Assembly: GCF_023161965.1 (NCBI RefSeq)
Contig: NZ_JALNTY010000001.1
Coordinates: 726,501 to 790,500, forward strand
Source of the DNA: Anaerosoma tenue
GTDB taxonomy: Bacteria; Actinomycetota; Coriobacteriia; Anaerosomatales; Anaerosomataceae
Direction: 5' to 3'
Length of the DNA stretch: 64,000 nt
In this document: positions 27,867 through 37,845 of the stretch, one piece after another
Position numbering within the stretch: position 1 is the first letter of the stretch
How the letters are laid out: every line of letters starts with the position of its first letter
Made by a program: the position numbers and the translations under genes
Notes under the pieces: model-generated
The model's database searches: none
The model's input: the letters and a program-made list of their open reading frames with translations, nothing else
What the model was told of the DNA's origin: nothing

Positions 27867-28268
27867 CTACTCGCCCTCGGGAGCCTCTTCCACCACGTCG
27901 GCCACGGCCTCGCCGCTGTCGACGGCCTCGGCGACCTCGACCTTGGCGGCGCGCTCGGCCTTGACGGAGTCCTTCTTGGCCTTCTCCTCACGAGCGGCGA
28001 TCGCGGCCTCTTCGGCGGCCTTCTGGCGCGCCTCGCGGGCCGCCGCTTCCTTCTCGGCCACCGCAGCGGCGGCGTTGCCGAACTTATTGGAGAAGCGCTG
28101 CACGCGTCCGCCGGTGTCGACCAGCTTCTGCGTACCGGTGTAGAACGGATGGCACTTGGAGCAGAGCTCCACGCGCAACTCGGGCTTGGTGGAGCGCGTC
28201 ACGAAGGTCTCACCGCATGAACAGGTGACCTTCGATTCGACGTACTCGGGATGGATGCCACTACGCAC
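27867..28268 (-). CDS. rpmE: Ribosomal protein bL31 with a long charged C-terminal tail
   Basis: Residues 1-65 are a normal zinc-type bL31: '[19 protein letters not shown]', cysteines at 16, 18, 36 and 39 for one zinc, and '[20 protein letters not shown]'. Residues ~66-133 are an added tail, first Ala/Glu/Lys/Arg-rich and helical in look, then acidic ('[20 protein letters not shown]'). Usual bL31 is about 65-90 residues, so the tail doubles the protein. The GTG start has GGAGG 8 bases upstream. A strong promoter and a leader hairpin lie upstream, suggesting its own regulation. Confidence 0.93.
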
Positions 28269-28292
28269 TTTGGAGACCTCCGTATGTATGCA

Positions 28293-28309
28293 CCTGGTTT
28301 CCGACCAGG
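28293..28309 (-). promoter_or_regulatory. Leader hairpin of the rpmE transcript
   Basis: CCTGGT (28293-28298) and ACCAGG (28304-28309) pair around a 5-base loop in the ~55-base leader between the predicted rpmE transcription start and its start codon. Ribosomal-protein leaders often bind their own product. Whether this one binds bL31 is conjecture. The stem does not cover the ribosome binding site. Confidence 0.4.
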
Positions 28310-28327
28310 CGCGCGGACAGCCCGCGA

Positions 28328-28356
28328 ATCATAGCACGGGGCGGGCCGAGCGGCAA
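28328..28356 (-). promoter_or_regulatory. Sigma-70-type promoter for rpmE
   Basis: On the minus strand TTGCCG (complement of 28351-28356) and TATGAT (complement of 28328-28333) are separated by exactly 17 bases. It is the clearest promoter-like sequence in this part of the window. The region 28357-28495, between it and the rho stop, is GC-rich and has only a weak long-range inverted repeat that might serve rho. Confidence 0.7.
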
Positions 28357-28495
28357 CGGGCCGGGACCGGTGCGGCGGGTAGTCCACGCTTGCCGTCCTC
28401 GCCGCACAGGACGCGGCTGCGGAGGCTGCGCTCAGGACTCCCGCCACACCGTCTTGTCGTTATCCGCGCGCCCGTCGATGACCACGGCGGTGGAA

Positions 28496-29845
28496 CTAGA
28501 TATCGATGCCGTTGGTGGCGCGCTTGTCGCTCGCGCTCTTGGCCATCTTGGTGAGGAACTCCTGGTTCGACTTGGTCTGCTTGAGCCCCTTGATGAGCAT
28601 CTCCATGGCGCGCTCCGTGGAGTCCACGCCGTGCAGCACGCGGCGCAGGCCCCAGACGAATGGCGCCTCCATCTGCGTGAGGATGAGCTCCTCCTTGCGG
28701 GTGCCCGACGTGATGACGTCGATCGCCGGGAAGATACGCCGGTCGGCGAGCTTGCGGTCGAGCCTGAGCTCCATGTTGCCGGTGCCCTTGAACTCCTCGA
28801 AGATGACCTCGTCCATCTTGGAGCCCGTGTCCACGAGCGCGGTGGCGAGGATGGTGAGCGAGCCGCCGTTCTCGATGTTGCGGGCCGCGCCGAAGAACTT
28901 CTTGGGCGGATAGAGCGCCGTGGAGTCCACGCCGCCGGAGAGGATCCGGCCGCTCGCCGGAGTGGCGAGGTTGTACGCACGCGCAAGACGCGTGATCGAG
29001 TCGAGCAGGATCACCACGTCGAAGCCGCTCTCCACGAGCCGCTTCGCGCGCTCCATCACCAGCTCCGCTACGGCGATGTGGTTCTCGCTGGGCATGTCGA
29101 AGGTGGACGAGACGACCTCGCCCTTGATGGAACGCTCCATGTCGGTGACTTCCTCTGGCCGCTCGTCCACGAGCAGGCACATGAGGTACACCTCGGGGTT
29201 GTTCTCGCTGAGCGAGGCGGCGATGTCCTTGAGGACCGTCGTCTTGCCCGCCTTGGGCGGTGAGACGATGAGCCCGCGCTGGCCCTTGCCGATGGGGGCC
29301 ACCAGGTCGATCACCCGCGCCGTGATCGTCTTCTCCCCGTGCTCGAGCCGTAGGCGCTCGTCGGGGTAGACCGGCACGAGGTCGCGGAAGTTCTTGCGTC
29401 CGCGCGACTCCTCCACGTTCTGCCCGTTGACCGACGTCAGCTTGGTGAGCGCCGGGTACTTCTCTGACTCCTTGGGCGGGCGCACCTGGCCCCTGAGCAT
29501 GTCGCCCCGGCGGAGGTCGGACCTCCGGATCAGCGACATCGAGCAGTAGACGTCGTTGTCACCCGGCAGGTACCCGCTCGTGCGGATGAAGCCGTAGCCC
29601 TCGGGCAGGATGTCGAGGATGCCCTCGATCTCCACGAACCCTTCGGCCTTCACCTTCGCCTCGTACACGGCCGCGACGATCTCGTCCTTCTTCTTGAGCG
29701 CCTTGACGTCGAGCTCCAGCTCGGACGCCATCGTCCGCAGCTCGGCGACGGTCTTGGCGGCAAGTTCTTCGCGGGTCACCGAGGGCTGGACCTCTTTGGG
29801 CTGACCGCCTCCGCGACGGCCTCTCTTACGCGGTCGTGCACTCAC
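28496..29845 (-). CDS. rho: Transcription termination factor Rho
   Basis: Hexameric RNA helicase that ends transcription. The 449 residues comprise the Rho N domain (~15-55, '[20 protein letters not shown]') and an RNA-binding cold-shock-like domain ('[20 protein letters not shown]'). The ATPase core follows, with P-loop '[20 protein letters not shown]', '[13 protein letters not shown]' and '[16 protein letters not shown]'. It lacks the large insert common in many Actinobacteria such as Mycobacterium. Its GTG start overlaps the fsa stop (GTGA), so rho is the last gene of the cDPG operon and is coupled to it. Confidence 0.97.
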
Positions 29846-30504
29846 GCGTTCTTCACCTTCTCCCAGTCGGCCAGGAACGCTTCCAGGCCGCGATCGGTCA
29901 GGGGATGCTTCACGAGCTTCTGCAGCACCGCGAACGGCACCGTGGCGATGTCGGCGCCCATCAGCGCGGCCGCGACGACGTGCTGGTTGTGCCGCACGGA
30001 GGCGGCGATGACCTCCACCGGGTGGTGGAAGTCGTAGTTGTTCAGGGCGGCGATCATGTTGCCGAGGTGCTCAAGGCCGTCCTCGGAGATGTCATCGAAC
30101 CTGCCGATGAACGGACTCACGTACCGCGCGCCGGCGCGTGCCGCCATGAGCGCCTGAGGAACGGTGAAGCAGAGCGTCATGTTCACGTGGATGTTGCGCT
30201 CGGCGAGCGCCTTGGTGGCGGCGAGACCCTCCGGCATCACCGGAACCTTGACCACGACGTTGGGCGCGAGCTCGGCGAGCGTCTCCCCTTCGGCCACGAT
30301 CTCATCGCGCGTGAGGCTCACCGTCTCGGCCGACACGGGTCCGTCGCAGATCTCACAGATGCGCTGGATATGCGCGTGGAAGTCGGCGAGCGAGCCGCCT
30401 TCGCGGGCGTACAGCGACGGGTTGGTGGTGACACCCGCCAGCACTCCCCACGAAGCCGCCTCCTCGATCTCGGAAAGGTTCGCGGTGTCCAGGAAGAACT
30501 TCAT
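29842..30504 (-). CDS. fsa: Fructose-6-phosphate aldolase / transaldolase-like protein
   Basis: 220-residue small-type transaldolase (TalC/Fsa). The N-terminus 'MKFFLDTANLSEIEEAASWG' and 'GVTTNPSLYAREGG' are the family opening. The Schiff-base lysine lies in 'NVVVKVPVMPEGLAATKALA', and 'SPFIGRFDDISEDGLEHLGN' follows. Such proteins exchange dihydroxyacetone units (transaldolase) or cleave fructose 6-phosphate; sequence alone does not decide which. Its start codon directly abuts the 2-phosphoglycerate kinase stop, and it overlaps rho. Confidence 0.92.
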   Translation of the reverse strand: MKFFLDTANLSEIEEAASWGVLAGVTTNPSLYAREGGSLADFHAHIQRICEICDGPVSAETVSLTRDEIVAEGETLAELAPNVVVKVPVMPEGLAATKALAERNIHVNMTLCFTVPQALMAARAGARYVSPFIGRFDDISEDGLEHLGNMIAALNNYDFHHPVEVIAASVRHNQHVVAAALMGADIATVPFAVLQKLVKHPLTDRGLEAFLADWEKVKNA

Positions 30505-31458
30505 CTAGCGTGCATCCTCTCGTCCGGCGGGACGGTCATCCTCCCGCTCCTGCTCCTCGTCCTCACGGATCACCGCGTCGACGATCCGCTCCAGCACCTC
30601 GGCCACCGTGCGGTCGAGCTGATGGCTGTGAACCACTGGCACGTCGTGCTCACGCGCCAGGTCTTCAACGTAGTGTCCGAGCAGCCGGATGTTGTCGAAG
30701 TTGGCACGGTACCGCTCAAAGGGCCGCATCCCCTCGGTCTGCACCTCGCGGATGTAGAAATGGCTCCGATGGGCTTCCTCGTCGTCAACGCTGATGAGGA
30801 GCTGCACCACCGATGCGTCCTTGAACTGGGAAGGGTCTATATACCCTGGCGCCACATGGATGCCCTCGAGCACCATGCTCACGCCCTCCACCACCGCGCG
30901 TTCGATCAGCGACTTCACACCGGTGGCAACCACGGCCGCTTGCTCACGGAAACCCACGATCACAGGAGAAGCGCCTCGGGGAGCCGGGACCCGCAGCCCG
31001 CGCCATGCGTTGAACGAACTCTCGTAGATGGCTGGCATGAGGTCCCGTGAGAAGATACCACGCATCACCTCCCGAATGCTATCCGTTGAGACGATGCGGG
31101 TTATGCCGAGCCGGTGGGCGACCTCGGTGGCGATGGTGGACTTGCCTACGCCGGTGGTGCCGCCGATGAGCACGATCAGCGGCCGCTCGAGCCGCGAGAT
31201 CTCGTTCAGGCGCCGGTAGCGCTTGGCCACAGAGCCGTCGTCCTCCTCGGCGAGGATGCGGTACGACGCGTCGCGCACCTCGGCGAGCGTCACCTCCAGC
31301 TGACCCGCGTCGCGGAACCCGTCCTGTACGCGCTGGGCCGCCGTGTACGCGCGTGAAGGGCTCAGCCCCGCGGCCATGTAGGTCTGTGCGAGCAGACCCT
31401 TGCTCATCGGCAGTCCGTGCTTCTGATCCTTGATGATGACGGGGGGATTGCTGGGCAT
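30505..31458 (-). CDS. pgk2: 2-phosphoglycerate kinase
   Basis: Predicted to phosphorylate 2-phosphoglycerate to 2,3-diphosphoglycerate with ATP, the first step of cDPG synthesis. The 317 residues start with an ATP-cone-like domain (~7-85, 'IIKDQKHGLPMSKGLLAQTY'). A P-loop kinase domain follows, with 'LIVLIGGTTGVGKSTIATEV' (P-loop ~99-108) and 'RIVSTDSIREVMRGIFSRDL'. The cone-plus-kinase arrangement is that of the archaeal enzyme. The C-terminal ~20 residues are highly charged. The start overlaps the synthetase stop by one base (TGATG). Longer frames upstream run antisense to other genes and are rejected. Assignment is strengthened by the synthetase next door. Confidence 0.88.
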   Translation of the reverse strand: MPSNPPVIIKDQKHGLPMSKGLLAQTYMAAGLSPSRAYTAAQRVQDGFRDAGQLEVTLAEVRDASYRILAEEDDGSVAKRYRRLNEISRLERPLIVLIGGTTGVGKSTIATEVAHRLGITRIVSTDSIREVMRGIFSRDLMPAIYESSFNAWRGLRVPAPRGASPVIVGFREQAAVVATGVKSLIERAVVEGVSMVLEGIHVAPGYIDPSQFKDASVVQLLISVDDEEAHRSHFYIREVQTEGMRPFERYRANFDNIRLLGHYVEDLAREHDVPVVHSHQLDRTVAEVLERIVDAVIREDEEQEREDDRPAGREDAR

Positions 31459-32801
31459 CAGGGCCTCCCGGATCGGTGACGTTCGAGCGCAAGGGCATAC
31501 AGACGGTCGATCATCGCGTCGAGGCCGTCCCCGGAAAGCGAGACGGGCACGTTGTCGCAGAGCACGGTAGGCACGCCGGCCTCGGCCCCGGCGGCTGCCA
31601 CCACGTCGATCGCCGCCGCCTTCAGCTCGGTGAGCAGCACATCGAAGCGACCCGCGTGCGCACGCAGGTCGGCTCTCAGCGCGCCGCGGTCCGAAAGCGC
31701 GGTGCTCACCGCAACCACATCGCACCCGTGCTCGGACTCGAGATGGGCGCGCAGGCGGTCCACGAGGACGGGCGGGGCGGTTGTGGCGAACAGCACGCGC
31801 GCGCCGGAGACATCGGCAAGCGGCGTGGGACGGAACGTGGTGACCGCCACCGGCACGTCCTCCCGGACGCGCCGGATCGCGGCGACCAGCTCGCCAAGCG
31901 ACGCCTGTGTGGCGAGTGGGGCCTCGGCGCCGGCGATCACCACACCGTCGGCGCGAGCGAGGCGGTAGGGGCCGAAGTAGTCGCTCACGTACGACGAGCC
32001 CTGGGCGGCGCCCACCACGAGGAGCGTGGCGTCGGCACGTACCGGCGGGATCGCGGCGCCCGAACCCTCGAGCATCACCAGGTCGCGACCGAGCGAGTCC
32101 GCGAGGCGAGCCCCCTCGGGCACGTTGCTGAAGAACGTCTCCCCCGCCAGCCCCCCGCCGCACCGGCGGCAGCCCACGGTGGGCACCCTGCTCATCACGG
32201 CGTCCTCGTAGTTGTCCGAGGCGGCATGCACGCCGCGCTCCGCAAGCGCCAGCAGGTCCTCGGTGGTGAGCGCCACCTCGTCCCCCCGGATCAGCTCCGG
32301 CTCGGCGGGTCCTCCGCGACCCATCGCAAGCACGACCACGCGGTGGCCCCGAGCGTCGAGATGGCGCGCCACGTAAGCGGAGATCGACGTCTTGCCCACG
32401 CGCTTGCCCGTTCCGATGATCGCGAGCGCGGGCGTGTCGAGCGCCACCCTGGCGGCGGGAGGATCGAAGGCGAAATCGGCGCCCACGTAGCCCACGCCCA
32501 GCGCAAGCGCCTCGCTGGCGAGCCTGAAACGGTCTGCTGCCGAGACGATCGGCTCGTCGGAGAGGTCGATCATGGTATCGGGTCTGAACCGCTCGATCGC
32601 GCTGCGCAGCGCATCGGAGGCGTTCGAGCCGCGTACCACGGGCAGGCCGTAGACATCCTCGCCGCCCGCGGCGTCGACCTTCTCGGTGCCGCCGATGAAC
32701 GCTGCCGCGACCACCTCGTGCGTGCGCCGCAGCTCGTCGAGCGCGAACCGCACCACGGGCGGGTAGTGCTCCCCGTCGATGAGCGCGACGACCCTGCTCA
32801 T
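31458..32801 (-). CDS. cpgS: Cyclic 2,3-diphosphoglycerate synthetase
   Basis: Predicted to close the ring of 2,3-diphosphoglycerate at the cost of ATP, giving cDPG. The 447-residue protein begins 'MSRVVALIDGEHYPPVVRFA' and has a P-loop at ~130-139 in 'ALAIIGTGKRVGKTSISAYV'. It also has a Cys-x2-Cys pair in 'VGCRRCGGGLAGETFFSNVP' and the 'LVMLEGSGAAIPPVRADATL' segment. The overall pattern is that of the archaeal cpgS family, known from thermophilic methanogens, and the length matches. The ATG at 32801 overlaps the phosphoesterase stop (ATGA). It is coupled on both sides. Confidence 0.88.
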   Translation of the reverse strand: MSRVVALIDGEHYPPVVRFALDELRRTHEVVAAAFIGGTEKVDAAGGEDVYGLPVVRGSNASDALRSAIERFRPDTMIDLSDEPIVSAADRFRLASEALALGVGYVGADFAFDPPAARVALDTPALAIIGTGKRVGKTSISAYVARHLDARGHRVVVLAMGRGGPAEPELIRGDEVALTTEDLLALAERGVHAASDNYEDAVMSRVPTVGCRRCGGGLAGETFFSNVPEGARLADSLGRDLVMLEGSGAAIPPVRADATLLVVGAAQGSSYVSDYFGPYRLARADGVVIAGAEAPLATQASLGELVAAIRRVREDVPVAVTTFRPTPLADVSGARVLFATTAPPVLVDRLRAHLESEHGCDVVAVSTALSDRGALRADLRAHAGRFDVLLTELKAAAIDVVAAAGAEAGVPTVLCDNVPVSLSGDGLDAMIDRLYALALERHRSGRP

Positions 32802-33628
32802 CGCGAGCACTTCCCCGACGGCGGTTCGGCCGATGTGTCGGCGCCTTGATCGGTGTCGCTCGGCTGCCACACGCAGACCTTCCGCAAGTCGCGCGCGTAG
32901 TCGGCCACCGTCTCGGGCTCGGCGAACGGGTGCTTGAGGATGACCCGTACACGCTCGTCGGTCACCTCGAGGATGTTGTAGCTCGCCCGCGTCATGCCGC
33001 GGAGACGATGCGAGCACGCGGTACCGGCGTTGACCACGATCATGTCTTCGAGCCGCCATACGTGAGGGACGTGCTTGTGGCCGCAGAGGACCATGTCGCA
33101 GCCGCTGCCGGCGAGCACACGGAGCAGGTCGCCCGCGTCGTAGACGATGTTGCGCTCGCGCCCCGTGCCGGGAACCGGCAGCAGGTGGTGATGCAGCGCG
33201 ACGATCTTGAACTCGTCGGGATCCGAGAAGCGCTCCTCGATCCACCGGTAGCGGTTCCGGCCGATGCGTCCAGCATCCAGGTCCGGCTCGGAGGAGTCGA
33301 GCCCCAGCACGCGCACGCCACGGAACCTCAACTCGGTGGAGCGCGAGCCGAAGAGCTCCTCGAAGTGCAGGTCGCCCACGTTGCGGGCATCGTGATTGCC
33401 CGGCAGGACCAGAACGTTCTCCACCTCCATGCGGGAGATCAGCCGGTGCGCGACCTTGAACTCCTGGCGGAAACCCATGTCGGTGAGGTCGCCCGTGACG
33501 ATGAGCGCGTCGGGCGCGAGCTCGTTGATCTCATCGACGACCCGGGTCGCCAGGCTCGGGATATGGTACTGCGAGCCGCAGTGCAGGTCGGAGATCTGCG
33601 CGATGACGACGGGCTTCTTATCGCTCAT
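32798..33628 (-). CDS. Calcineurin-like metallophosphoesterase
   Basis: 276 residues with every dinuclear metal motif of the family: 'IAQISDLHCGSQYH' (DxH), 'IVTGDLTDMG' (GDxxD), 'LVLPGNHDARN' (GNHD), 'VALHHHLLPVPG' and 'VLCGHKHVPHVW' (GHxH). The class resembles Icc/CpdA-type cyclic-nucleotide and phosphodiester hydrolases. It lacks a signal peptide, so it is cytoplasmic. It is the first gene of the tight run with cpgS, pgk2, fsa and rho. A role in hydrolysing cDPG or a related phosphate compound is an inference from that coupling. The last ~25 residues are polar and poorly conserved in look. Confidence 0.85.
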   Translation of the reverse strand: MSDKKPVVIAQISDLHCGSQYHIPSLATRVVDEINELAPDALIVTGDLTDMGFRQEFKVAHRLISRMEVENVLVLPGNHDARNVGDLHFEELFGSRSTELRFRGVRVLGLDSSEPDLDAGRIGRNRYRWIEERFSDPDEFKIVALHHHLLPVPGTGRERNIVYDAGDLLRVLAGSGCDMVLCGHKHVPHVWRLEDMIVVNAGTACSHRLRGMTRASYNILEVTDERVRVILKHPFAEPETVADYARDLRKVCVWQPSDTDQGADTSAEPPSGKCSR

Positions 33629-33729
33629 GGGCGCTCCGGTCTCGATGGGGACAGCGGCCTGCGGACATACGAGTGGACCACGGGGATGTCTGGTTCATTC
33701 CCATTCCCGAAGCCTGCGCATCAGTGCCG

Positions 33730-34635
33730 TCAGACGATCCGCGCACCGTGGCGGTCCACGGGCACCGCCATGACCTGGCCTCTGCCGACCTCACCGAGCG
33801 CCGTACGGGCAACCTCGGCAAGATGGCGCGCCCGCTCAAGAGCACGCTCGTCGTTCTCGGCCTGCACCAGCGCAAGCATGCTCGGTCCGGCGCCGGAAAG
33901 CACCGCGGGACCGGCCCCGATGGCCTCGAACAGCTCACGGACCGTGACCATGTCGGGCACGAGCAACGCACGGTAGCGCTCGTGGATCGCGTCGAACATG
34001 CCTGCGGCGACGCACCCCGGCTGGCCGGTGGCGATGCCCACCGCGAGCAGCGCCGCGTGCGCCGCATTGGCGGCCGCGTCGCTGTGCGGGACGAACCCGG
34101 GCAGGACCGACCGCGCCTGGTGGGTGGAGAGCTCGCGTTCGCCCAGAACGACGATCGCCGCGATCCCACCCGCGGGATCGATGTGCGTGCACGCCGGGCC
34201 ATCGGACGTGATGACGAACCCTCCGTAGAGAGCGGCGGCGACGTTGTCTGCGTGACCCTCCAGGGCCGCCGCCATCTCGAAGATCGCGCGACGGTCGAGA
34301 TGCGAGCCCGCCAGCGCATCGGCGAGGACCAGGCCGCCCACGATCGCCGACGAGGACGAGCCCAGACCGCGACCCACCGGGATGCCGTTGTGGCACACGA
34401 CCTCGGCCCTGAGGTCCGGCCGTCCGGTTCGCTCGAAGAGGTGGGCCATGGCACGCAACACGTGGTTATCGGCATCGGCGCTCAGACTCCCCGCGCCCTC
34501 ACCGCTCACCTCGACACCCCACGCCGCGGCAAGCTCGCCCTCGAACTCGTTGTGGATCCCGAGCGCGAGCCCGAACGCGTCGTAGCCCGGACCGATGTTG
34601 GCCGAGGATGCCGGCACCACGACGCGGACGCCCAC
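33730..34635 (-). CDS. thrB: Homoserine kinase
   Basis: GHMP-family kinase that phosphorylates homoserine for threonine synthesis. The N-terminal 'VVVPASSANIGPGYDAFGLA' and the ATP loop 'GIPVGRGLGSSSSAIVGGLV' are diagnostic, as is 'VLSGAGPSMLALVQAEN' near the C-terminus. The length is 301 residues. It follows hom after 3 bases. Threonine synthase (thrC) is not in the window. The 101-base gap downstream leads to the phosphoesterase gene, which has its own ribosome site (GGAG). Confidence 0.95.
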   Translation of the reverse strand: MGVRVVVPASSANIGPGYDAFGLALGIHNEFEGELAAAWGVEVSGEGAGSLSADADNHVLRAMAHLFERTGRPDLRAEVVCHNGIPVGRGLGSSSSAIVGGLVLADALAGSHLDRRAIFEMAAALEGHADNVAAALYGGFVITSDGPACTHIDPAGGIAAIVVLGERELSTHQARSVLPGFVPHSDAAANAAHAALLAVGIATGQPGCVAAGMFDAIHERYRALLVPDMVTVRELFEAIGAGPAVLSGAGPSMLALVQAENDERALERARHLAEVARTALGEVGRGQVMAVPVDRHGARIV

Positions 34636-34638
34636 CGG

Positions 34639-35925
34639 TTACAGCTCCTCGACCCTGAGGACCGTTCCGATGCCGCGCGCGGCCTCAAGCGAGTCGATCG
34701 TGGCCAGCGCGGCCCGCACGTCCCGCTCGGCGGCCCGGTGGGTGATCCACACGATCTCCGCGCCGCTGTCGTCGGTCTGGCGCTGGATGACCGAGGCGAG
34801 CGACACGCCGTTGGTGGCGAACACCCCCGCTATGGCGGCAAGCACGCCGGGCTCGTCCGCCGCCGTGAGGCGGATGTAGTACGAGGTCTCCAGGTCGGCG
34901 ATGTCGCAGATGGGAAGGCTCTCGCTGCACGTGCAGCCCACGAGCCCGGCGCAGCCGCGCTCGATGTGCCGTGCGGCCTCGATGATGTCGCCCACCACTG
35001 CCGAGGCCGCGGGCAGCGAGCCCGCGCCTTCACCGAAGAACATCGTCTCGCCCACGGCGTCCCCGATCACGTAGATCGCGTTGTAGACGCCGTTGACGTT
35101 GGCGAGCGGGTGGCTCGCGCGGATCATCGTGGGCTGGACGCGCACGTCCACTCCGGTGGCGGCGCGCTTGGCGACCGCCACCAGCTTGATCTCGTAGCCG
35201 GTCTCGCGCGCGTACGCGATGTCGCCCGGCGTGATGGACTGGATGCCCTCAGCGGGCACATCGGCGAAGGTGACGCGAGAGTTGAAGGCGATCGACGCGA
35301 GGATGGCGATCTTGGCCGCCGCATCCAGACCGTCCACGTCGGCGGTGGGGTCCGCCTCGGCGAATCCGCGCTCCTGCGCTTCAGCCAGCGCGCTCGCGTA
35401 GTCGAGACCATCCTCGGCCATGCGGGTGAGCATGTAGTTGGTGGTGCCGTTGACGATGCCGTAGACCGCCTGGATCTCGTTGCTCACGAGGCTGTGCTTG
35501 AGCGGGTTGATGATGGGGATGCCGCCGCCCACGCTCGCCTCGAACAGGATGTCGACACCCTGATCGGCGGCCGCGTCCATCACCTCACGGCCGTGCGTGG
35601 CCATGAGCGCCTTGTTCGCGGTGACCACCGCCTTGCCGGCGCCGAGCGCGTCGAGCACGACCTCGCGCGCCACGCCCGTACCGCCGATGAGCTCCACTAC
35701 GATGTCGATGTCCGGATCCCGGATGATGTCCGCGGCCTCGATGGTGAAGCGCTCCGGCGCCAGGCCGAGATCCGCGGCGCGCGCTGGGTTGCGGTCGGCG
35801 CACTTCACGAGCGCGATGTCCACGCCGGTACGCGAACGGAACTGCTCGGCGTGGCGCTCGAAGATCTCCACGACGCCGCTGCCGACAGTCCCCAGGCCGA
35901 TCAGGCCGACGTTGATGGTGCGCAT
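34639..35925 (-). CDS. hom: Homoserine dehydrogenase
   Basis: Reduces aspartate semialdehyde to homoserine. The 428 residues contain the Rossmann motif 'NVGLIGLGTVGSGVVEIFER', the catalytic segment 'LAEAQERGFAEADPTADVDG' with its lysine region 'AAKIAILASIAF', and a C-terminal ACT domain ('YYIRLTAADEPGVLAAIAGV'). The ACT domain indicates threonine feedback control. The start is the ATG at 35925 with GGAGG upstream. The open frame to 35994 is rejected. It probably begins a transcription unit, because a hairpin and a TACAAT hexamer lie just upstream. Confidence 0.95.
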   Translation of the reverse strand: MRTINVGLIGLGTVGSGVVEIFERHAEQFRSRTGVDIALVKCADRNPARAADLGLAPERFTIEAADIIRDPDIDIVVELIGGTGVAREVVLDALGAGKAVVTANKALMATHGREVMDAAADQGVDILFEASVGGGIPIINPLKHSLVSNEIQAVYGIVNGTTNYMLTRMAEDGLDYASALAEAQERGFAEADPTADVDGLDAAAKIAILASIAFNSRVTFADVPAEGIQSITPGDIAYARETGYEIKLVAVAKRAATGVDVRVQPTMIRASHPLANVNGVYNAIYVIGDAVGETMFFGEGAGSLPAASAVVGDIIEAARHIERGCAGLVGCTCSESLPICDIADLETSYYIRLTAADEPGVLAAIAGVFATNGVSLASVIQRQTDDSGAEIVWITHRAAERDVRAALATIDSLEAARGIGTVLRVEEL

Positions 35926-35955
35926 GAGTCCTCCGCATCGCTCGAGTATGCGGTC

Positions 35956-35961
35956 ATTGTA
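35956..35961 (-). promoter_or_regulatory. Candidate -10 element for hom
   Basis: TACAAT on the minus strand lies 31 bases upstream of the hom start, between the hairpin at 35983-36005 and the gene. It matches five of six -10 consensus bases. No good -35 is seen at 16-18 bases, so the promoter would depend on an activator or an alternative sigma factor, or be weak. Confidence 0.35.
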
Positions 35962-35982
35962 GCCGAGTGACGCCCGCCGATG

Positions 35983-36005
35983 GCGCCCCGTCACGGCCGG
36001 GGCGC
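35983..36005 (-). terminator. Hairpin after the DUF454 gene
   Basis: GCGCCCCG (35983-35990) and CGGGGCGC (35998-36005) form an 8-base perfect stem with a 7-base loop, 10 bases beyond the DUF454 stop. It likely separates the argS-lysA-DUF454 transcript from hom. There is no T-run, as with the other hairpins of this genome segment. Confidence 0.5.
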
Positions 36006-36015
36006 GGCGATGCCG

Positions 36016-36444
36016 TCAGCCCTCTGCCTCCGGCAGCTCTTCAGAGCAGGCTTCGCGTGTGGGGATGTGGTAGCCGATGTAGTAGTGCACGGCGATGGCG
36101 ACCACGAAGAGCAGGACGGCGTACCCCACGGTCCACCCCCTCACGCCCACGTGAGCCATGATGACCATCCACGACGCCTGCGACGTGACCCACATGGTGC
36201 CGAGCGCCACCACCTTGGCCCTGCGCGGTATCCCGCGGCCCGACATGTAGTCGCGGACGTAGCAGCCGAGGCGCTCGTGCTCGATGAGCCACGTGTACAG
36301 CCGCTCGGAGCTGCGCACGAAGCAAGCCGCCGCGAGCAGCAGGAACGGCGTGGTGGGCCACATCGGCAGGAACATGCCGATGACGCCGAGTACCAGCGAC
36401 ACGGCGCCGACGACGAGACAGATGTATCTGACCGCTCTCTTCAT
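36016..36444 (-). CDS. DUF454 (YbaN-like) inner membrane protein
   Basis: 142 residues with an N-terminal hydrophobic pair including 'FLPMWPTTPFLLLAAACFVR', the family signature (PTTPF-LLA-CF-RSS), and two further C-terminal helices. The middle is a polar loop ('HERLGCYVRDYMSGRGIPRR'). Members are widespread but lack an assigned function. It lies 39 bases after lysA and is probably co-transcribed with it. Confidence 0.85.
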   Translation of the reverse strand: MKRAVRYICLVVGAVSLVLGVIGMFLPMWPTTPFLLLAAACFVRSSERLYTWLIEHERLGCYVRDYMSGRGIPRRAKVVALGTMWVTSQASWMVIMAHVGVRGWTVGYAVLLFVVAIAVHYYIGYHIPTREACSEELPEAEG

Positions 36445-36483
36445 GCCCGTTTCGCAGCAAACCCGGTGCCCCGGATGCGCCCC

Positions 36484-37845
36484 TCAGCCTTCGTCGGTCC
36501 GCAGAAGATCCTCGTACGTCTCCCGGCGCACGGCCCAGCGCCACTGTCCATCTCGCACGAACACAACGCCGGGGCGCACCTGCTTGTTGTAGTTGCTGCT
36601 CATCGACTGGCAGTACGCGCCGGTAGCGGCCACGCACACCACATCGCCCGGCTCGGGACACTGCAACGGCGCGTCGCGTACCACGATGTCTCCGCTCTCA
36701 CAGTGCTTGCCCGCGATGGTGCCCACCATCTCGCGCGGCTGTTCCGCCTTGTTGGCGATGAGCGCCTCGTAGTGGGCGTCGTAGAGCGAGGTGCGGATGT
36801 TGTCGGACATGCCGCCGTCGACGGCCACGTACGTGCGGATGCCCGGGATCTCCTTGACCGAGCCCACGGTGTAGAGCGTCACGCCGGCGCGCGCAACGAT
36901 CGAACGCCCGGGCTCCACGGCCATACGCGGGACCGCGATGCCGTGACGCTCGCACTCCTCCTTGATGCCGTCGACCACGACCTTGCCGAAGTCCTTCACC
37001 GTGGAGGGTTCGTCCGGCGCGCCGTAGGCCACGCCGAGGCCTCCGCCCACGTCGAGCATACGTACGGCGTGTCCCGTCTCGCTCTCGATCTCCCGCATGA
37101 AGGCGACCATCACCTCGATCGCCCGGGCGTAGCTGTGGAGCGCGAAGATCTGGCTGCCGATGTGCATGTGCAGACCATCGAACTCAAGGCCCGGCAGCGC
37201 GACGGCGCGCTTCACGGCCTCCATCGCGAGGCCCTGGTTCAGGCCGAAGCCGAACTTGGAGTCCTCGGCGCCGGTCATGATGAAGTCGTGCGTGTCGGCC
37301 TCCACACCCGGCGTCACGCGCACGAGCACCTTCTGAGTGACGCCGCGCTCCGCAGCCAGTGCCGAGAGACGCTCCATCTCCTCGAAGTTGTCCACCACCA
37401 CGCGCCCGATGCCGGCATCGAGGCACTCGGCGAGCTCGGCCGGCGTCTTGTTGTTGCCGTGCATCTGCACGCGCTCCATCGGGAAGCCCGCACGCACGGC
37501 GTAGGCGAGTTCGCCGCCGGACGCGCAGAGCAGGCAGCAGTCCTCCTCCTCGACGATCCGCACCATGGCGAGCGAGAGGAACGCCTTGCCCGCGTAGACG
37601 ACGTCCACGTCCTTCCAGTGGTAGCGCGTCCACTTCACGTACTCGGAGAGCTGGTGACGGATGGTCGTCTCGTCCATCACGTAGAGCGCCGTGCCGGCCT
37701 CGCGGGCCAGCTCCACCGTGTCCACACCGCCGATCCAGAGACGGCCGTCCTTGATCTCGGCGGTCATCGGAAGGACGGGCAACAGGTCGTGTCCGGTGCG
37801 CTGATCGGGCTGTGCCGGCGGACGAGGAGTCGAAGGCCGTGCCAT
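36484..37845 (-). CDS. lysA: Diaminopimelate decarboxylase
   Basis: Last step of lysine synthesis, decarboxylating meso-diaminopimelate with PLP. The 453 residues carry the PLP lysine in 'DVDVVYAGKAFLSLAMVRIV', 'HMHIGSQIFALHSY', 'MLDVGGGLGVAYG' and 'AGKHCESGDIVVRDAPL'. The last of these contains the CESGD signature with the catalytic cysteine. The N-terminal ~30 residues are Pro/Arg-rich and unlike the family, but the ATG at 37845 has GGGGAGG about 10 bases upstream; MTAEIKDG 26 residues later is an alternative start. It follows argS after 81 bases. Confidence 0.95.
   Translation of the reverse strand: MARPSTPRPPAQPDQRTGHDLLPVLPMTAEIKDGRLWIGGVDTVELAREAGTALYVMDETTIRHQLSEYVKWTRYHWKDVDVVYAGKAFLSLAMVRIVEEEDCCLLCASGGELAYAVRAGFPMERVQMHGNNKTPAELAECLDAGIGRVVVDNFEEMERLSALAAERGVTQKVLVRVTPGVEADTHDFIMTGAEDSKFGFGLNQGLAMEAVKRAVALPGLEFDGLHMHIGSQIFALHSYARAIEVMVAFMREIESETGHAVRMLDVGGGLGVAYGAPDEPSTVKDFGKVVVDGIKEECERHGIAVPRMAVEPGRSIVARAGVTLYTVGSVKEIPGIRTYVAVDGGMSDNIRTSLYDAHYEALIANKAEQPREMVGTIAGKHCESGDIVVRDAPLQCPEPGDVVCVAATGAYCQSMSSNYNKQVRPGVVFVRDGQWRWAVRRETYEDLLRTDEG

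Follow-up and report, generated by a model that had tools for sequence, protein, structure and literature searches.

A metallophosphoesterase gene coupled to cpgS as a candidate cyclic 2,3-diphosphoglycerate hydrolase gene in Actinomycetota

The cpgS locus

The window analysed here is a stretch of 64,000 nucleotides from Anaerosoma tenue. On its minus strand lie, in order, hom, thrB, a metallophosphoesterase gene (MPE), cpgS, the gene for 2-phosphoglycerate kinase (2PGK), a talC-like gene and rho. The features are as follows.

28496..29845, minus strand: rho, transcription termination factor; shares GTGA with talC; conserved gene flanking the module
29842..30504, minus strand: talC-like transaldolase/fructose-6-phosphate aldolase, named by sequence recognition; starts directly after the 2PGK stop
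30505..31458, minus strand: 2-phosphoglycerate kinase (2PGK); 1-nt overlap with the cpgS stop; best NCBIfam matches are 2PGK models, below their cut-offs
31458..32801, minus strand: cpgS, cyclic 2,3-diphosphoglycerate (cDPG) synthetase, 447 aa
32798..32801, minus strand: ATGA shared by the MPE stop and the cpgS start, GCTCGCGATGAGCAGG
32798..33628, minus strand: metallophosphoesterase (MPE), candidate cDPG hydrolase, 276 aa; first gene of the close-packed run
33730..34635, minus strand: thrB, homoserine kinase, named by sequence recognition; conserved upstream flank, about 100 nt from MPE

From MPE onward all junctions overlap or abut (ATGA, TGATG, TAGATG and GTGA in turn), and the overlap of the phosphoesterase stop with the cpgS start, pointed out by the sequence-only reading, is confirmed. 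At the talC/rho start a 4-nt overlap recurs in 44 of 51 distinct loci; genes of central carbon metabolism are thus coupled to the gene of a transcription terminator. Positions 28000-37000 contain no Rfam match, and a promoter/terminator scan produced no informative site, with one promoter-like match (28356-28328) and fewer terminators than in shuffled sequences.

The known route to cDPG runs from 2-phosphoglycerate through 2,3-diphosphoglycerate (2,3-DPG) to cDPG (PMC1224877). The window CpgS matches the solved cDPG synthetase of Methanothermus fervidus (8oru/8ork) over residues 3-440 with 46% identity (phmmer E 9e-124). In the M. fervidus enzyme residues E45, K46, K145 and R146 contact 2,3-DPG or its site (PMC10690619); they correspond to E40, K41, K133 and R134 of the window protein and are invariant in an alignment of 16 sequences that includes M. 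fervidus. With its full-length match and conserved substrate-contacting residues, the window cpgS is a genuine cDPG synthetase gene. The best matches of the kinase are NF003259 (308.8 bits, cut-off 343) and NF008994 (324.5 bits, cut-off 603), both below cut-off. With cpgS followed by a 2PGK gene, both enzymes known for cDPG synthesis would be encoded in the window.

The metallophosphoesterase

The MPE reading frame is intact. A profile search gives 65.2 bits against Metallophos PF00149 (cut-off 21.5), and the protein carries the complete set of metal-ligand motifs: D14-x-H16, G46-D47, G77-N-H-D80, H146-H-H148 and G183-H-x-H186. The full calcineurin-like set claimed by the earlier reading is therefore borne out, and the pattern DxH / GD / GNH[DE] / H / GHxH together with PF00149 places MPE in the calcineurin-like metallophosphoesterase superfamily. 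All of these motifs are invariant in 32 aligned orthologues, and MPE orthologues with 80-89% identity to the window protein exist. Besides the metal ligands, R157, E158, R159, K185, W191 and R210 are fixed in the orthologues linked to cpgS; a polyanionic substrate would suit the many fixed basic residues. Four further positions (S19, Y21, E114 and R121) show almost no variation in cpgS-linked proteins and are mostly replaced in unlinked homologues from Actinomycetota, and they mark the linked against the unlinked forms. No membrane segment is evident in the MPE sequence.

An AlphaFold2 model built from the 32 orthologues (mean pLDDT 82) was used for fold comparison alone. Its best fold matches are GpdQ, Rv0805 and purple acid phosphatases, with Z of 22-24, and it has the class III phosphodiesterase fold of GpdQ and Rv0805 (VIA Z 22.3-23.4, 209-227 residues aligned, 2.6-3.0 A). 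The fold that the model predicts to be common to MPE and these enzymes shows no function. In a tree of MPE proteins one well-supported clade takes in most of the unlinked homologues, and the methanogen proteins make up another. The tree has long branches, its linked proteins do not form a single clade, and a few of the unlinked copies are placed among them. Within its well-known superfamily MPE represents a new subfamily, for which a new role is proposed.

Conservation and coupling

The earlier reading had named absence of the phosphoesterase beside cpgS in related genomes as one result that would speak against it, and the pair is in fact kept. Within the window's order cpgS is present in 57 of 61 genomes, and in 51 of the 57 MPE lies immediately upstream on the same strand. 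In three of the six remaining genomes (G023, G034 and G048) cpgS stands at a contig end; the other three (G039, and G041 and G050 from one genus) have real cpgS loci in which cpgS-2PGK is kept without MPE. Elsewhere in the phylum MPE adjoins cpgS, again upstream on its strand and usually with an overlap, in 121 of 146 cases among the cpgS genes listed outside the window's own family, across 26 families. A phylum sample of 296 genomes comprises 156 with both genes, four with cpgS alone, six with an MPE match alone and 130 with neither, some of the MPE matches being paralogues. The Fisher value for this co-occurrence is 1e-70, a figure that overstates the case since relatedness is uncorrected.

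The gene order MPE-cpgS-2PGK-talC-rho recurs across loci, and MPE-cpgS is its tightest pair. The two genes overlap in 53 of 68 distinct loci, by exactly 4 nt in 41, and are separated by more than 30 nt in only two; their coupling therefore exceeds chance. No MPE-CpgS fusion was conspicuous among the loci handled. Membership of MPE in a hom-thrB operon was considered and rejected, as the thrB-MPE gap is never shorter than 31 nt in relatives and MPE and cpgS usually overlap. In two records with the GenBank titles Aeromicrobium sp. and Slackia heliotrinireducens (L102 and L127) the module genes stand in their usual order, and the titles seem to be wrong; within the stretch tested, the L127 MPE is interrupted by an in-frame stop.

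The pairing has exceptions beyond the order. In family f20 (15 genomes among those listed) cpgS-2PGK is kept, and the MPE homologue is at best distant and unlinked. A few other families also have cpgS and 2PGK without MPE. Some genomes that carry cpgS can dispense with MPE. The f20 homologue (L152-L155) lies near GpsA-like and acyltransferase-like genes.

Loss of the module

Four genomes of the order have no cpgS (G036, G038, G049 and G051), and none of them has a 2PGK gene or an MPE orthologue; the sole MPE relative in G038 is an unlinked homologue. Both hom-thrB and talC-rho are retained in G049 with the three module genes missing in between, G051 retains hom and talC-rho, and G036 retains talC-rho. 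Families f2, f11 and f15 are each mixed, some of their genomes having the module and others not, so that no fewer than three losses seem to be independent. Adjacent genes can go in a single deletion, and such block loss therefore shows a module rather than three genes lost separately. Adjacency and block loss together show linkage, not a reaction. Given the conserved position upstream of cpgS and the joint loss with cpgS and 2PGK, MPE very probably belongs functionally to the cDPG module of Actinomycetota, in a judgement (not a computed value) that counts in variants where it is a regulatory neighbour. The part of the earlier cDPG-enzyme idea that rested on context is strongly supported, for across Actinomycetota MPE keeps its place immediately before cpgS and disappears together with cpgS and 2PGK; the part on the substrate stays a hypothesis.

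Homologs outside Actinomycetota

No MPE was found at the cpgS loci of Bacillota, Bipolaricaulota and one Thorarchaeon, and a Bacillota background of 299 genomes, a set without a positive control, gave no MPE at E 1e-30. Several of these cpgS genes (L132, L136, L138, L142 and L117) run with ABC-transporter-like genes, recognised by sequence as a substrate-binding protein, a permease and an ATPase. Such neighbours may mean that uptake is linked to cDPG chemistry. A protein that is possibly phosphoglycerate-mutase-like, again by sequence recognition, is encoded near cpgS in L117, L132 and L136.

Methanobacteriota possess an MPE homologue of about 45% identity. It is found between NAC and NYN-nuclease genes and not beside cpgS; a NAC-like gene adjoins it in L171, L173, L181, L183, L165, L166 and L192, with an NYN-nuclease-like gene where the flank reaches. 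Several Methanobacteriota genomes have two copies. The homologue is present in 10 of 24 Methanobacteriota genomes that lack cpgS, and its association with cpgS is moderate (111/15/10/14, Fisher p 3e-6, relatedness uncorrected). It may be an uncharacterised counterpart. Given the moderate association and the NAC and NYN-nuclease neighbours, the methanogen homologues were not counted as direct support.

Proposed function

The context fits cDPG hydrolysis best as the role of MPE. In the proposed scheme a three-gene cDPG module (MPE, cpgS and 2PGK) is set in non-Actinomycetia Actinomycetota. 2PGK would convert 2-phosphoglycerate to 2,3-DPG, and CpgS would close the ring with ATP to give cDPG. MPE, which we infer to be a soluble two-metal hydrolase, would most likely open the ring phosphoanhydride and return 2,3-DPG. 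Opening cDPG amounts to cutting a phosphoanhydride, and the superfamily members LpxH and ApaH make such cuts. Being translationally coupled to cpgS would keep breakdown in step with synthesis, and cDPG could serve the cell as a turning-over store of carbon or phosphate or as an osmolyte store. We assign a probability of roughly 0.42 to MPE being the hydrolytic member of this module that opens cDPG to 2,3-DPG.

The main rival makes MPE a 2,3-DPG phosphatase that yields 2- or 3-phosphoglycerate and sets the supply of 2,3-DPG to CpgS, with cDPG degraded by CpgS running in reverse or by a different enzyme. The CpgS of M. fervidus is indeed reversible (PMC1224877), and the fold relatives of MPE include phosphomonoesterases, e.g., the purple acid phosphatases. 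One genome, G247, has MPE followed directly by 2PGK (L156, 5120-6977), and cpgS was not found in it, an arrangement that favours 2,3-DPG as the substrate or else a recent loss of cpgS; it is, however, a single genome and incomplete (92%). In almost every locus the partner to which MPE is coupled is cpgS and not 2PGK, and the enzymes closest to MPE by sequence, GpdQ and Rv0805, are both phosphodiesterases. That MPE is coupled almost exclusively to cpgS makes cDPG a likelier substrate than 2,3-DPG, although G247 points the other way, and a 2,3-DPG phosphatase is considered unlikely. Possible, if still on the improbable side, is a different substrate altogether (a cyclic nucleotide, a cyclic dinucleotide, or a glycero- or other phosphodiester), MPE being beside cpgS through regulation or through a stable hom-rho neighbourhood. 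MPE is after all remotely related to the class III phosphodiesterases; homologs exist in methanogens that lack cpgS, in a different gene context, and unlinked ones in the cpgS-less genomes G038 and G127. The flanks, however, outlast MPE, cpgS and 2PGK in G049 and G051, so stability of the neighbourhood is alone insufficient, the linked proteins have residues that are not fixed in the unlinked homologues, and the CpdA, SpdA and YfcE models all score MPE below cut-off.

Genes of house-cleaning enzymes are often found next to that of the enzyme whose mistakes they repair, and MPE might accordingly be a repair phosphatase that removes damaged products or by-products of 2PGK or CpgS (e.g., an over-phosphorylated glycerate), outside cDPG turnover. 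Its dispensability in some cpgS genomes agrees with such a role. We know of no side product of 2PGK or CpgS, however, and a pairing that is nearly universal and translationally coupled is more what one expects of a stoichiometric partner, which makes repair quite improbable.

In some methanogens cDPG accumulates to high concentrations and has a rapid turnover. A search of the freely accessible literature, subscription literature lying outside it, revealed no gene assigned to cDPG hydrolysis. As a hydrolase candidate that is translationally coupled and can be recognised by its subfamily residues, MPE makes this gap testable, and synthesis genes in many Actinomycetota predict cDPG as a bacterial metabolite. 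The wider claim, that the MPE subfamily is a cDPG hydrolase and that much of the non-Actinomycetia Actinomycetota (sediment and groundwater lineages included) makes and turns over cDPG, is tentative and rather doubtful.

Relation to known systems

MPE shares its metal-ligand motifs and overall fold with Rv0805, GpdQ and CpdA/Icc, that is, with class III cyclic-nucleotide phosphodiesterases and glycerophosphodiesterases, at 21-25% identity. It differs from the class III enzymes in its fixed genetic partner, cpgS, and in the invariant residues R157, E158, R159, K185 and R210, which are largely absent from two outgroup proteins. The relationship to Icc/CpdA proposed earlier thus stands at the level of fold and superfamily but not for the 3′,5′-cAMP phosphodiesterase CpdA itself, whose model (NF008359) gives 41.3 bits against an equivalog cut-off of 225. 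The model for SpdA, a 2′,3′-cyclic nucleotide phosphodiesterase (NF050112), gives 36.4 bits against a cut-off of 400. The best NCBIfam match of MPE is the anti-phage phosphoesterase DS9_1 (NF053862), at 71.5 bits against a cut-off of 420, and in contrast to DS9_1 the gene context of MPE is a housekeeping one. An anti-phage role was rejected, with DS9_1 far below cut-off, weak PADLOC matches (E 2e-7 and 5e-6) and no defence context. A phage origin was likewise discarded, as 50,697 phage records yielded one weak tblastn match (30% identity over half the protein).

In Methanothermobacter thermautotrophicus the activity that hydrolyses cDPG is bound to the membrane, and K+ and phosphate inhibit it (PMC1224877). 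The reaction proposed for MPE, cDPG to 2,3-DPG, is the same, whereas MPE by its sequence is without an evident membrane segment. cDPG was termed exclusive to hyperthermophilic methanogens in a 2023 structure paper (PMC10690619) and has also been reported in Methanobrevibacter smithii (PMC1224877). Unlike the CpgS of M. fervidus, the window CpgS is bacterial and is encoded in an operon with MPE and 2PGK.
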